This document shows positions 42,204 through 57,326 of a DNA stretch of 64,000 bases, piece after piece (the stretch's first letter is position 1; each line of letters starts with the position of its first letter). The notes beneath the pieces are model-generated. The model was not told where the DNA came from. It did no database searches and saw nothing but the letters and a program-made list of their open reading frames with translations. The translations under genes were made by a program, and so were the position numbers. The DNA lies in assembly GCF_000685315.1 (NCBI RefSeq), contig NZ_ARYM01000005.1, positions 62,001 through 126,000 on the forward strand, written 5' to 3'. The DNA comes from Hyphomonas polymorpha PS728. Its GTDB lineage: Bacteria; Pseudomonadota; Alphaproteobacteria; Caulobacterales; Hyphomonadaceae.

Positions 42204-43967
42204 GTGGACGTTCAGGGGTCTTTCAAATTGGAACCAACTGCGACAGAGGCGGGGGTACCCGCGCGTCTCGGCACCTTTCAGTCGACTTGCGACGCATTGG
42301 ATTACGCGGCCACAGGCCAGAGCGGCATCAACTTCTACAATTCAGAAGGCCTGCTGACCCGGAGCCTCTCCTACCGCGAACTACGCGACAGGGCCTTAAA
42401 TATGGCTGGCCGCATGGCCGCGCGGTTTTCCCGAGGCGCGCGAATTGGCGTGTTGGCAGAAACCTCTCCCGACTTCGTCACCGCCTTTATGGCGTGCCAG
42501 TATGCAGGCATGGTGCCCGCGCCATTAAGCTTGCCGGCCGCCTTTGGCGGACGCCAGACCTATGAATGGCAGATCAGCAACATGGTTCGCAGCGCGGGCC
42601 TGTCGGCGCTGCTTGCGCCCCCTGCCCTGCACGAGATTTTGCTGTCGGCCACCGCCAACCAATCCATTGACCTCTTCGACCTCAGCGGTGACAATCTGCC
42701 TCCGGAAACGGCTCAGCCAATTCCTCACGGCCCGGATGAACTGTCCTATATCCAGTTCTCGTCTGGCAGCACCAGCGAGCCAAAAGGTATTGTCGCCACT
42801 CAGGCCAGTCTCTCGGCAAACTGCCGGGCGATTATCCAGGAAGGCTTGCAGGTCCGCGCGGGTGACCGCGCAGTTTCCTGGCTGCCGCTGTATCACGACA
42901 TGGGGCTCATCGGCTTCCTTATTGCGCCGCTCTACTCCCAACTCTCGATCGACTTTCTCTCGCCGACAGATTTCGCGCGCCGGCCGGGAACCTGGCTAAA
43001 GCTGATCAGCGCCAACAAGGGCACCCTCTCCTACAGCCCCAGCTTTGGGTATGAACTCTGCGTGCGGCGTCATCGCGGCGAGGTGCTCGACCTTTCCAGC
43101 TGGCGCGCCGCCGGCATCGGCGGCGATATGGTACGGGCCGATGCCCTCGACCAGTTCAGCGAAACATTTGCGGGCTCGGGATTTCGCCGCACGTCCTTTG
43201 TCGCCAGTTATGGTCTGGCCGAATCTACACTCGCAGTGAGCTTTGCGCCGCTGGAAACTGGCCTTAACACAGACCAGGTTGATGTAACACGGATGCAAGC
43301 TTCCGGGCGCGCCGTTCCGGCATCGGACCTGACACGGGATGGAGCTGACAGGTCATTCGTTAGCTGTGGCCGGCCTCTGCCGTCCACAGAACTCAAAATC
43401 GTGGATGAAGACGGCGCAGAGCTCGGCTTCAGACAGATTGGAAGGATCCTCATCCGCAGCGCCTCGCTGGCAGCGGGATACTTCCGCGCAGATCGCGATC
43501 TTCAACCGCTCACGGACGAATCCGGGTGGCTGGACACCGGTGATCTTGGCTATTGGCTGGGCGATGAAATCGTCGTGACCGGCCGGTCAAAAGACATGAT
43601 CCTCTCCAATGGCCGCAACATCTGGCCGCAGGACATCGAATGGGTAGCCCAGAAAACTGGCGGGCGGCTCGTGGCCCGGTCTGCTGCATTCGAGATCCGG
43701 GAAGCGGCCGATGCCTCACGGATTATCCTGCTTGTCGAATGCCGATCGCAAGAGACCGACCTTCGCGAAACGCTTATAAGCGACATTGCGGCGGCTGCGC
43801 GTTCGGTTGCAGGTGCGCCGGTGAGCGTTGAACTCGTCAGTATAAAGACACTTCCGGTAACCAGTTCCGGCAAGCTCAGCCGCGCAGCATCCCGCGATGC
43901 GTACCTGTCCGGCCGGATCAATCAGGACAAGGCGGAGGCCTCTACCCGGGCCGCTGCCTTGCCTTGA
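42204..43967 (+). CDS. Fatty acyl-AMP ligase for the ceramide pathway
   Basis: A protein of up to 587 residues from the adenylating superfamily, FAAL branch. The AMP-binding P-loop QFSSGSTSEPKGIV lies near residues 184-197, followed by WLPLYHDMGLIGF and, later, GWLDTGDLGY and GRSKDMILSNGRNIWPQDIE. It would load a fatty acid onto the acyl carrier protein gene two positions on. GTG 42204 has a poor ribosome site; TTG 42228, after AGGGG, is a good alternative. It leads an operon with ceramide reductase, ACP and serine palmitoyltransferase, in the order I recall from Caulobacter. Confidence 0.88.
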   Translation: MDVQGSFKLEPTATEAGVPARLGTFQSTCDALDYAATGQSGINFYNSEGLLTRSLSYRELRDRALNMAGRMAARFSRGARIGVLAETSPDFVTAFMACQYAGMVPAPLSLPAAFGGRQTYEWQISNMVRSAGLSALLAPPALHEILLSATANQSIDLFDLSGDNLPPETAQPIPHGPDELSYIQFSSGSTSEPKGIVATQASLSANCRAIIQEGLQVRAGDRAVSWLPLYHDMGLIGFLIAPLYSQLSIDFLSPTDFARRPGTWLKLISANKGTLSYSPSFGYELCVRRHRGEVLDLSSWRAAGIGGDMVRADALDQFSETFAGSGFRRTSFVASYGLAESTLAVSFAPLETGLNTDQVDVTRMQASGRAVPASDLTRDGADRSFVSCGRPLPSTELKIVDEDGAELGFRQIGRILIRSASLAAGYFRADRDLQPLTDESGWLDTGDLGYWLGDEIVVTGRSKDMILSNGRNIWPQDIEWVAQKTGGRLVARSAAFEIREAADASRIILLVECRSQETDLRETLISDIAAAARSVAGAPVSVELVSIKTLPVTSSGKLSRAASRDAYLSGRINQDKAEASTRAAALP

Positions 43968-43985
43968 TAGCGCGCTGTCTGCACC

Positions 43986-44942
43986 ATGACGGGTCGGCCG
44001 CTCATTGCACTGACCGGCGCGACAGGATTTGTTGGCAAGATACTGCTGGCGGACCTGTCGCGGCGTGGCCATCCGGTCCGGGCGTTGGCGCGCGCCGCGC
44101 CGGGGAGAACCTTGCCGGCCCACGCAGGTGTGGAATGGATTGCAGGCGATCTTTCGTCCGGAGAGGTCCTTTCCTCTCTTGTGCGGGGCGCGAGGGTGGT
44201 CATCCATCTGGCGGGCGCGACGAAAGCGAGGGATGCAGCGACATTTCACGAGGTGAATGCGGCGCGCACCGGGGATCTCGTGCAACGCGCACAGGCTGCA
44301 GGCGTGGACCATTTCATACATGTCTCGTCCCTCACCGCGCAGCGGCCCGATGTTTCGCCTTACGCCCGTTCCAAGGCGGACAGCGAGCAACTGGCCATCG
44401 CCAATGCCGGAAACATGGCACTCACTATCCTTCGGGCCCCGGCTGTTCTTGGGCCTGATGATGACGCAACGCGGGCGCTGTTTTCGGCTTTGGCCAGAGG
44501 CCTTCTGCCGAGCCCTGGCGGCGCAGCCGTAAATTTTCGCTTTTCCGTTATTGATGTGGCGGACGTCTCGCGATGCCTTGCCGATTGTGCCACGAGTGCC
44601 GCGAGCGGCATACGATCCATCGCCCCCGCCGGCCATCTCAAGCTCGGTTGGGATGATGTTGCGCAAAGCGCGCAACGCGTTCTGCTCCACCCGGTGCGGC
44701 GCGTCGTGATGCCGCCGCTACTGATGAAAGCGGCTGGTCATGCGGCAGACCTTGCTGTGAAGCTGAACGGGCAACCGCAGGTATTTTCCAGCGGCAAGGT
44801 GCAGGAACTGCTCTCTGGTGACTGGCTGGCGGACACTCAGGTATCAGGGGCCGTTCCGCTCGATGTGACGCTGCAGCGGTGTATTGCCCCCTTTCAGCGG
44901 TCTGCTAGGAAAATGAACAGGTTTGGGAAGAAACGAGCGTGA
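43986..44942 (+). CDS. cerR: NAD-dependent short-chain reductase, CerR (ceramide reductase) candidate
   Basis: A 318-residue extended SDR. The nucleotide motif is GATGFVG (residues 11-17) and the catalytic pair is Y126 and K130 in SPYARSKADSE. In Caulobacter the neighbour of acp and spt, CerR, reduces the keto group of oxidised dihydroceramide. Here the gene lies 18 bases after the acyl-AMP ligase and overlaps the ACP gene by four bases (GTGA), so context gives the function; the sequence alone would only say epimerase or reductase. Confidence 0.82.
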   Translation: MTGRPLIALTGATGFVGKILLADLSRRGHPVRALARAAPGRTLPAHAGVEWIAGDLSSGEVLSSLVRGARVVIHLAGATKARDAATFHEVNAARTGDLVQRAQAAGVDHFIHVSSLTAQRPDVSPYARSKADSEQLAIANAGNMALTILRAPAVLGPDDDATRALFSALARGLLPSPGGAAVNFRFSVIDVADVSRCLADCATSAASGIRSIAPAGHLKLGWDDVAQSAQRVLLHPVRRVVMPPLLMKAAGHAADLAVKLNGQPQVFSSGKVQELLSGDWLADTQVSGAVPLDVTLQRCIAPFQRSARKMNRFGKKRA

Positions 44943-56194: not shown

Positions 56195-56201
56195 CCCGGC
56201 C

Positions 56202-57326
56202 ATGCCCCGCCTCCCTTCTCCTGGGCAACCTTCTTTTTCGCCTCGCATCCTTGTGCTGGCGATTGGCGAGGCGCACCAGCTGTTACACGTTCTCGGCGCC
56301 GCCAGAGAACTTGCTCGCACCGGGGTGAGTACGGATATCCTTGTCTCAACAGATTGGCACGAGCAGCTGATTGCAGCCCATGCGCCAGAGCTTTCCCGCA
56401 GCGTCTTGCGAACACCCCTGTTCTATGAGGGGCGGCCCCTCTATCAGTGCCCCCCTCGCCTGCCCAACCTTCTGCTGAACCTCGCGCGCATTTCCGGATA
56501 CAATGCCATTCTGACACCCGAGCGCACATCGACGGCGCTGAAGAAAGTGCTCGGCAAGCAGTGCCCGAAGCTCATCCATATTCTTCATGGCGCGGGCGAC
56601 CGGGAAAAAGGATATGAAGACCGTATACGGCTCTTTGATCTGGTTTTTGTTGCAGGCCAGAAGGATTATGACGCTTTCCTGAGCTATGGGTTGGCGACCG
56701 CTGAAACCTGCCATGTCATCGGCTATTGCAAGTTTGACGTGTTGCCACCTGGCCCACCGCGTTTCTTTGAGGATAACCGGCCAGTCGTACTCTACAATCC
56801 CCATTTCGATGCTGATCTCAGCTCATGGATGAGCTTTGGGCCCTCCTTGCTTGAAGCCTTTGCGAAGATGCCGGACTTCAATTTCATCGTCGCTCCCCAT
56901 CTGAGGCTGCGCGGCAAAGGCAGGCGCCTGTTCGATAAACTCTCCCAATTATCTCAGGCGCCAAATCTGAGGTTTGATGGAGGCAGCATTCATTCCCTCA
57001 ATATGGACTACACGCGCACAGCCGAGATTTATGTAGGGGATGTCAGCAGCCAGGTTTACGAGTTTCTGCAAACGCCGAAGCCTTGCGTCTTCTTGAATGC
57101 ACATGACGCCCACTGGCGAGATAGTCCCTTCTATCGCCACTGGACTTTTGGCGAGGTTGCCAATTCTGCGGAGGAAGCCCTGCGCCTTATCTGCTCAGCA
57201 AAGGCTGAGCATCCAGGATTTCTGGCGCAGCAGGTGGCAGGCTTTGCCGCCGCCATCAATGCTGGGCCTGTCTCTGCGTCTGCCCGGGTGGCCGCGTTGA
57301 TCCGGGATTTTCTGGGCCGGGCCTGA
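56202..57326 (+). CDS. TagF-like CDP-glycerol glycerophosphotransferase family protein
   Basis: A 374-residue soluble or peripheral protein. The segment ILHGAGDREKGYEDRIRLFDLVFVAGQKD (in parts) and the later YVGDVSSQVYEFLQTPKPCVFLN are typical of the GT-B CDP-glycerol:glycerophosphotransferase family that builds teichoic acid. Gram-negative members decorate capsules or lipids with glycerol phosphate. Caulobacter's ceramides carry phosphoglycerate groups, so a similar function fits. It is the last gene of the unit and lies 83 bases before imuA, from which it is separated by the SOS operator. Confidence 0.75.
   Translation: MPRLPSPGQPSFSPRILVLAIGEAHQLLHVLGAARELARTGVSTDILVSTDWHEQLIAAHAPELSRSVLRTPLFYEGRPLYQCPPRLPNLLLNLARISGYNAILTPERTSTALKKVLGKQCPKLIHILHGAGDREKGYEDRIRLFDLVFVAGQKDYDAFLSYGLATAETCHVIGYCKFDVLPPGPPRFFEDNRPVVLYNPHFDADLSSWMSFGPSLLEAFAKMPDFNFIVAPHLRLRGKGRRLFDKLSQLSQAPNLRFDGGSIHSLNMDYTRTAEIYVGDVSSQVYEFLQTPKPCVFLNAHDAHWRDSPFYRHWTFGEVANSAEEALRLICSAKAEHPGFLAQQVAGFAAAINAGPVSASARVAALIRDFLGRA

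Follow-up and report, generated by a model that had tools for sequence, protein, structure and literature searches.

A Hyphomonas version of the Caulobacter ceramide phosphoglycerate cluster, with a TagF-like gene as a candidate component

A gene cluster in Hyphomonas polymorpha PS728, contained in a 64,000-nucleotide stretch of contig NZ_ARYM01000005.1 (hereafter the window) from a 4.05-Mb draft genome, raises the question of which lipid it makes and which of its genes take part. The original prediction described a locus for an anionic sphingolipid; this description is upheld by homologues of five ceramide synthesis genes and of five of the six genes which in Caulobacter convert ceramide to ceramide phosphoglycerate (CPG) and ceramide diphosphoglycerate (CPG2). 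The locus is the Hyphomonas version of this known Caulobacter cluster, and has already been reported in the genus. From sequence homology, we consider that it would make ceramide and then CPG and CPG2 as in Caulobacter, with a probability of roughly 0.8. New here, beyond the literature found, are the tie of a TagF-like gene to the pathway, the probable replacement of the phosphatase CC_1158 by a haloacid dehalogenase (HAD) family enzyme, and a DUF2141 gene beside cerS. The value of the locus lies in these overlooked genes within a known kind of cluster: comparison names the TagF-like CC_1167 family and DUF2141 as candidates, together with a phosphatase swap, and these bear on the second half of the pathway. 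In Caulobacter, survival without lipopolysaccharide is partly CPG2-dependent (PMC12275187) and polymyxin sensitivity depends on genes of the pathway (PMC11324152).

Correspondence with the Caulobacter cluster and distribution

The Caulobacter crescentus cluster CC_1168-CC_1152 (CCNA_01210-01226) comprises 17 genes for a phosphosphingolipid (PMC11324152). Ceramide synthesis is ascribed there to aasR, cerR, acpR, spt and cerS, the conversion of ceramide to its phosphoglycerate and diphosphoglycerate forms to CC_1161, CC_1160, CC_1159, CC_1158, CC_1153 and CC_1152, and probable transport to CC_1168 (LptC2), CC_1166 (flippase) and CC_1156/CC_1155 (LptF2/LptG2); CC_1167 and CC_1157 are termed "probably unrelated" (PMC11324152). 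Hyphomonas neptunium is stated to possess 16 of the 17 genes, CC_1158 being missing (PMC11324152).

Gene content and order in the window match this published cluster, with homologues of 5/5 ceramide and 5/6 CPG2 genes and an adjoining second LptF/LptG pair. CC numbers were assigned through gene order in C. vibrioides DSM 9893 (L099/L160); in this genome, 17 genes occupy the same 17 positions as in the published cluster, in the order LptC2, tagF, flippase, aasR, cerR, acpR, spt, cpgC, cerK, cpgA, metallophosphatase, a frame with a HIT-like motif, lptF2, lptG2, cerS, nucleoside triphosphate (NTP) transferase and cpgD. Gene-by-gene comparison, a check proposed with the original prediction, gave every head-group gene of the window a counterpart in C. 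vibrioides DSM 9893 (CpgA, CpgB/CerK, CpgC, CpgD, the NTP transferase and the TagF-like protein) except the HAD gene, and CpgD was 49-53% identical to its homologues in eight sampled Caulobacter genomes (g13). The ceramide genes and homologues of cerK, cpgC, cpgA, cpgD and CC_1153, which mark a CPG/CPG2 cluster of the Caulobacter type, were thus all found in the window. Caulobacter can make CPG2 without CC_1158 (PMC11324152), so the absence of this gene from the window leaves the membership standing.

The comparison covered 150 genomes of the order, 240 genomes of the class and 42 Hyphomonas genomes. Serine palmitoyltransferase (SPT) was matched in 48/150 and 32/240 genomes of the order and class samples, respectively, and in eight of the 42 Hyphomonas genomes, the window's included; this last figure corrected an impression from the order sample, in which one of 15 genus members carried the locus, that it was unique to this genome. 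Ceramide and CPG genes are clustered in all eight SPT-bearing Hyphomonas genomes, as far as the stretches reach. The block is conserved in seven other Hyphomonas genomes (G152 among them), as well as in four genomes sampled from a second genus of the family, which argues that its genes do not stand together by chance. In the four genomes of the other genus the block is the same except that the flippase lies between the NTP transferase and cpgA, and tagF had no match in the genome. Among the 34 SPT-negative Hyphomonas genomes, 30 reach 90% completeness or more with no more than 5% contamination; the missing SPT can mean either loss or gain. Within the order, cpgA and cpgD were matched in exactly the same 23/150 genomes, CpgD homologues being 46-62% identical in the 22 genomes other than the window's, and CpgC homologues were found in 39/150. 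A horizontal origin from beta-proteobacteria, raised by the match of the window SPT to a 'BetaP' model (NF047599), was rejected because Caulobacter SPT best matches the same NCBIfam model.

The TagF-like gene and its place in the pathway

The final gene of the locus encodes a TagF-like protein, whose nearest relatives are from two Hyphomonas metagenome-assembled genomes (82 and 88% identity). The TagF-like gene of C. vibrioides occupies the position of CC_1167, for which cofitness values of 0.57 with spt and 0.54 with CC_1159 are given (PMC11324152). In the order sample, TagF-like matches occurred in 15/150 genomes, counting the window's own, and every one of the 15 was among the 48 with SPT (hypergeometric p = 6.7e-9, with genomes treated as independent); counted by genus, 5/5 fell within 14/31 (p = 0.012), and in the class sample five of the six TagF genomes were among the 32/240 with SPT (p = 1.7e-4, or 1.1e-3 without the own genome). 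We also inspected the flanks of the best 80 of at least 579 confirmed TagF candidates, taken from named records. A ceramide/CPG core gene was found at 59/80 and a head-group gene at 56/80 of these loci, whereas 0/7 control stretches, each 20 kb long and taken from other parts of the window's contig, had any such gene. At 27/80 loci, 26 of them titled Sphingobium or Sphingopyxis, cpgA came directly after tagF. In five Hyphomonas genomes, G158 and that of the window among them, tagF comes after cpgD in the same orientation. In a sixth Hyphomonas genome tagF is convergent with cpgD, and in a seventh it is ~38 kb distant, on a contig of equal length.

The label 'TagF-like' given by the original prediction is backed by Pfam in homologues but not in the window protein itself, to which PF04464 (CDP-glycerol glycerophosphotransferase) gave no match. 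Two alignments were built, comprising the window protein with 16/17 homologue loci (A1) and with 36/80 (A2). With E values of up to 0.1 admitted, PF04464 matched 27/37 A2 sequences, and residues H129, H233, D280, S282 and S283 were invariant in 37/37; the His and D-x-S-S positions may be equivalent to active-site residues of TagF. A single locus-linked homologue, with 37% identity to the window protein, was matched by PF04464 with an E of 1.8e-8 and 34.2 bits (cut-off 22.1), its residues 96-367 aligning to model positions 96-365, and also matched the TarL and TarF models, both below their cut-offs. Furthermore, the structural model of the window protein (predicted local distance difference test score, pLDDT, 91.1) points to a GT-B fold, known GT-B proteins heading the list of fold matches.

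Taken together, these findings suggest that the TagF-like enzyme is likely an overlooked part of the pathway. As to its role, we tentatively propose, at slightly under even odds, a nucleotide-dependent phospho-polyol transferase whose substrate is most likely phosphoglycerate and which would optionally extend the head group by one more unit or supply an alternative one; the role is taken as optional rather than fixed because, with the thresholds applied, 14 of the 23 cpgA/cpgD genomes had no TagF match and six of the 15 TagF genomes matched neither cpgA nor cpgD. Among the papers listed in literature searches, none assigned CC_1167/CCNA_01225, or a TagF-type glycerophosphotransferase, to sphingolipid synthesis; in PMC12275187 the pair TagD/TagF is invoked only by analogy, for CpgD and its following step. 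A bolder and doubtful proposal is that CC_1167 and the window protein are lipid-directed transferases of cytidine diphosphate (CDP)-glycerate, building a short teichoic-acid-like poly-phosphoglycerate on ceramide in Gram-negative outer membranes. If true, CPG2 would represent a short or base form of the head group open to lengthening or capping, and interchangeable modules (CpgA/CpgD, TagF, and HAD or metallophosphatase) would set the final lipid of each species.

A number of observations weigh against a TagF-type role in this pathway. No PF04464 match to the window protein was obtained in Pfam at E up to 10, and of nine homologues scanned singly against this model, one scored above the curated cut-off, five below it and three not at all. 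Profile matches in the PDB to TarL (E 0.14) and Cps3D (E 0.42) were not significant, and neither a TagF nor a TarL structure was among the 50 fold matches listed. The genomes just counted, in which TagF and cpgA/cpgD matches occur apart, also count here, as does G266, one of the six TagF genomes of the class sample, which had no SPT match. Within Hyphomonas, the 20 kb read from the eighth SPT genome (G151) contained no tagF. The G158 gene as assembled (L215:2088-3090) lies in two frames and is ~100 bp shorter than the window's, which may reflect gene disruption or faulty assembly. No core gene was in reach at 21/80 TagF loci, several of them on short contigs. Moreover, CpgA has been proposed as the CPG2 transferase in Caulobacter (PMC12275187).

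The best-surviving alternative, which follows the view taken of CC_1167 in PMC11324152, is that the TagF-like protein has nothing to do with sphingolipids: it would be an epimerase-like enzyme or a glycosyltransferase using nucleotide sugars, nearby by chance. We regard this as unlikely, although the 50 fold matches listed are mostly uridine diphosphate N-acetylglucosamine (UDP-GlcNAc) 2-epimerases and glycosyltransferases, Glyco_transf_4 matches 4/37 members of A2 (best E 2.8e-5), and the loci lacking a core gene in reach are consistent with it. Linkage to the pathway instead recurs in varied arrangements, with tagF preceding either the flippase (Caulobacter, Phenylobacterium) or cpgA (Sphingobium, Sphingopyxis), following either cpgD (Hyphomonas) or the HAD gene (L093, L096), or lying beside cpgC (Panacagrimonas). 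The cofitness of CC_1167 with spt and CC_1159 also speaks against chance proximity, as do the PF04464 matches across A2 and the lack of any UDP-GlcNAc 2-epimerase family among the nine families listed. A second alternative, that the TagF-like protein and not CpgA uses CDP-glycerate to convert CPG to CPG2 while CpgA performs another step, appears more improbable still: it draws on the likening of CpgD to TagD and of the next step to TagF (PMC12275187) and on the five same-strand Hyphomonas arrangements, but is at odds with the separate occurrence of TagF and cpgD matches noted above and with the perfect co-occurrence of cpgA and cpgD across 150 genomes.

Further TagF-like genes were encountered in other contexts. 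Three Caulobacter genomes (g13) carry a second TagF-like paralogue (L108:9928-11157 in G042; also G136 and G146), located on a contig other than that of the cluster and on a separate branch of the tree. Two small clusters (L104:9536-13774 and L105:6459-10608) consist of a flippase, a HAD gene, a second NTP transferase and a convergent tagF on contigs separate from the ceramide genes, and represent a possible alternative head-group module. Genes of the aspartyl/asparaginyl beta-hydroxylase family (L093:1533-2345) and resembling cyclopropane synthase (L096:1325-2530) stand beside tagF, and are possible modifiers of the acyl chains of the lipid. Alternative donor-synthase genes beside tagF were sought among ten neighbours in seven loci, four of these from the six TagF genomes without cpgD; no cytidylyltransferase was found.

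Proposed steps, probable phosphatase replacement and possible export

The steps from AasR through CpgA are proposed, with high confidence, from homology to Caulobacter genes studied in print. AasR would load a fatty acid on AcpR, Spt would join the loaded fatty acid with serine, and bCerS would attach the second chain, with reduction by CerR. The ceramide would then be phosphorylated by CerK, after which CpgC and the NTP transferase may take part in addition of the glycerate units, CpgD would produce CDP-glycerate, and CpgA is the proposed transferase using it. To these we add three proposals of our own, a phosphatase step performed by the HAD enzyme, the optional unit added by the TagF-like GT-B protein, and the export scheme given below. 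The original prediction that the head group may differ from that of Caulobacter is not borne out, the same head-group genes being present in C. vibrioides DSM 9893 with only the phosphatase family differing; a head group other than phosphoglycerate in the Hyphomonas lineage is very unlikely, for while the phosphatase comes from another superfamily and gene order differs, all other C. vibrioides head-group enzyme families are present and CpgD shows the close identity to Caulobacter homologues given above.

The CC_1158 homologue of the C. vibrioides locus is a calcineurin-like metallophosphatase (PF00149). It had no match in the window, with E values of up to 1 admitted, and none in the stretches read from seven other Hyphomonas genomes. 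Among 113 loci (window excluded, and drawn from fewer genomes than loci, after dropping repeats L126-L129, L160, L166 and L168 on contigs already counted), 27 had a homologue of the HAD gene, 24 a homologue of CC_1158, and none had both. This exclusivity is the pattern of one step with two unrelated enzymes, and would fit an intermediate needing dephosphorylation; an intermediate of phosphatidylglycerol synthesis also requires dephosphorylation. We therefore consider it fairly probable that the HAD enzyme performs the step carried out in Caulobacter by the unrelated CC_1158, which would explain how a genome lacking CC_1158 can retain that step. Ten of the 51 loci with either phosphatase (8 HAD, 2 CC_1158) had no cpgA/cpgD nearby, and because nine of these are in genomes without any cpgA or cpgD match, the phosphatase step is probably not tied to CPG2 alone. 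Two points count against such a replacement. The exclusivity partly reflects family-wise inheritance, and a C. crescentus CC_1158 mutant shows a mild effect, still making CPG2 with CPG slightly raised (PMC11324152). As loss of CC_1158 raises CPG, a simple role in making CPG does not fit, and the same paper explains its absence from H. neptunium by CC_1158 being non-essential (PMC11324152). A HAD gene 67% identical to that of the locus was also found in a genome of the same genus, G021 (L124:9770-10450), which had no SPT, CpgC, CpgA, CpgD or TagF match; a relict locus was rejected there, with no relic besides the HAD gene in the 40 kb read.

For the CpgC homologue, the designation 'Tam41-like' goes back to a short motif. 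An alignment of the window protein with 24/26 CpgC frames (A3) revealed a conserved FYGS...DFYV-type motif that may be Tam41-like, but searches of Pfam, NCBIfam and the PDB gave no match, including to Tam41. The AlphaFold model of CpgC has a pLDDT of 81.9. CC_1161 is reported to carry a CDP-diacylglycerol synthase InterPro domain (PMC11324152).

With the same repeat loci dropped, a DUF2141 gene was identified no more than 1.5 kb from cerS and in the same orientation at 24/32 cerS loci; of the remainder, it was elsewhere in the stretch in 4/32 and unmatched in 4/32, C. vibrioides L099 included. A periplasmic role for DUF2141 would be a guess. In L099, the frame between the CC_1158 homologue and lptF2 carries what we take to be a HIT-like motif.

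The suggestion that the pathway is complete including export fared less evenly, as the flippase-like gene and LptF2/LptG2 are present in the locus, but only one LptC was found genome-wide and none of the scanned locus genes showed an LptB ABC ATPase or LptA domain. Two LptF/LptG pairs are encoded in the genome, the second of them outside the locus. Its single LptC match (Pfam, E up to 0.01) lies outside the locus, is matched by CC_1168 at 34%, and adjoins frames that by eye resemble LptA and LptB; no second LptC of the CC_1168 type was found in a whole-genome Pfam search. Any second transporter would need either to share LptB and LptC or to rely on one that escaped detection. We give an even chance to a scheme in which the lipid, once flipped by the Wzx-like protein, is extracted by LptF2/LptG2 with the help of the one LptC detected and, presumably, of the common LptB and LptA.

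Profile searches in Pfam and NCBIfam confirmed that the genes named in the original prediction are present with their stated families, apart from the labels Tam41, TagF and bCerS, the last having no Pfam or NCBIfam match and being named from gene order and homology only. The predicted bounds, 42204-57326, enclose a real locus whose start nevertheless lies further upstream, such that the slightly larger span is 40666-57326 with the flippase gene at its front (Table 1). Reading frames define four transcription blocks. Overlaps of 4 bp occur at lptF2/lptG2, lptG2/cerK, DUF2141/cerS, cerS/NTP transferase and HAD/cpgD, as well as at cerR/acpR given the GTG start of acpR, whose query was 3 residues shorter than the true frame; acpR and spt overlap by 11 bp, and cpgD and tagF are separated by 7 bp. 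The first block had been called one overlapping operon, which is nearly exact, an 18-bp gap separating aasR from cerR.

Table 1. Genes of the locus, with window positions and the basis of each assignment
Gene product	Position	Strand	Basis
Wzx/flippase-like membrane protein, role of CC_1166	40666..41964	+	PF01943 E 1.7e-15; neighbourhood kept in relatives
AasR, fatty acyl-AMP ligase	42204..43967	+	PF00501; NF006624 679.8 bits, cut-off 600
CerR-like short-chain dehydrogenase/reductase (SDR)	43986..44942	+	PF01370 6e-19; aasR-cerR-acpR order conserved
AcpR, acyl carrier protein	44939..45202 (GTG; or ATG at 44945)	+	87 aa; PF00550 27.7 bits, cut-off 20.8
Spt, serine palmitoyltransferase	45192..46385	+	NF047599 564.5 bits, cut-off 500
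CpgC homologue (CC_1161), putative nucleotidyltransferase	46407..47330	-	Homologues; cerK adjacent in most synteny maps
CerK/CpgB homologue, ceramide kinase, DAGK family	47333..48295	-	PF00781 (DAGK_cat) 7.2e-11; synteny
LptG2	48292..49347	-	PF03739 5.2e-53; F/G order by analogy
LptF2	49344..50519	-	PF03739 6.7e-58
DUF2141 protein	50626..51135	+	PF09912 1.2e-25; signal-peptide-like N-terminus (by eye); overlaps cerS
bCerS-like ceramide synthase	51132..52316	+	Homology; position before CC_1153 homologue, as in Caulobacter
MobA/CofC-like NTP transferase (NTP_transf_3), CC_1153 homologue	52313..53110	+	PF12804 8.3e-11; after cerS
CpgA homologue, CDP-alcohol phosphotransferase	53530..54783 (start probably near 53647)	+	PF01066 4.1e-11
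HAD-IB phosphatase, CC_1158 place	54789..55478 (start inferred)	+	PF12710 4.1e-32; TIGR01490 above cut-off
CpgD homologue, phosphoglycerate cytidylyltransferase	55475..56194	+	PF00483 8.4e-11; homologues in other genomes
TagF-like GT-B protein, homologue of CC_1167-position gene	56202..57326	+	Homologue matches, fold, linkage

To the right of the locus, window positions 57410-62905 hold a DNA polymerase cassette (IMS domain, DnaE domains), whose genes we take to be imuA/imuB/dnaE2; in G163 and in G158 this cassette likewise adjoins the locus. Matches from the imuB query, which had been read out of frame (12 stops), were left out. To the left, ~22.5 kb (17842-40388) have no counterpart in G163 (L213), a relative that aligns with the window to either side of them, on the left over 907 bp at 85% to the end of the stretch read. 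At its right end this segment has a tRNA-Leu gene (40404-40488) and an integrase-like fragment (39664-40344; Arm-DNA-bind_3), and it contains a fragment of a type IV secretion system coupling protein (38167-38631). It is probably an integrated element beside the sphingolipid locus; direct repeats of at least 12 bases at its ends were not found between the two stretches compared.

Comparison with known systems

The Hyphomonas locus and the Caulobacter crescentus cluster share the five ceramide genes, CerK/CpgB, CpgC, CpgA, CpgD and the CC_1153 homologue, along with the flippase, LptF2/LptG2 and the TagF-like gene. They differ in the phosphatase, which is a HAD enzyme in the window and the metallophosphatase CC_1158 in C. 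crescentus, and in the DUF2141 gene preceding cerS in the window, to which C. vibrioides L099 offered no match. Gene order also differs, with tagF placed after cpgD in the window and ahead of the flippase in Caulobacter, and with cpgA, HAD, cpgD and tagF forming one block in the window, unlike in Caulobacter. A second LptC is present in Caulobacter (CC_1168), whereas none was found in the genome of the window. The locus of Hyphomonas neptunium, of the same genus, likewise lacks CC_1158, and the available part of its published account makes no mention of a HAD gene (PMC11324152). With the TagF/TarF/TarL family (PF04464), the window protein has in common a homologue scoring above the family cut-off, the GT-B fold, and an adjoining gene for a CDP-donor synthase (cpgD), as with TagD, although it is itself too distant for a direct Pfam match. 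In contrast to TagF, the proposed acceptor is a ceramide lipid, and the proposed donor is CDP-glycerate rather than CDP-glycerol.

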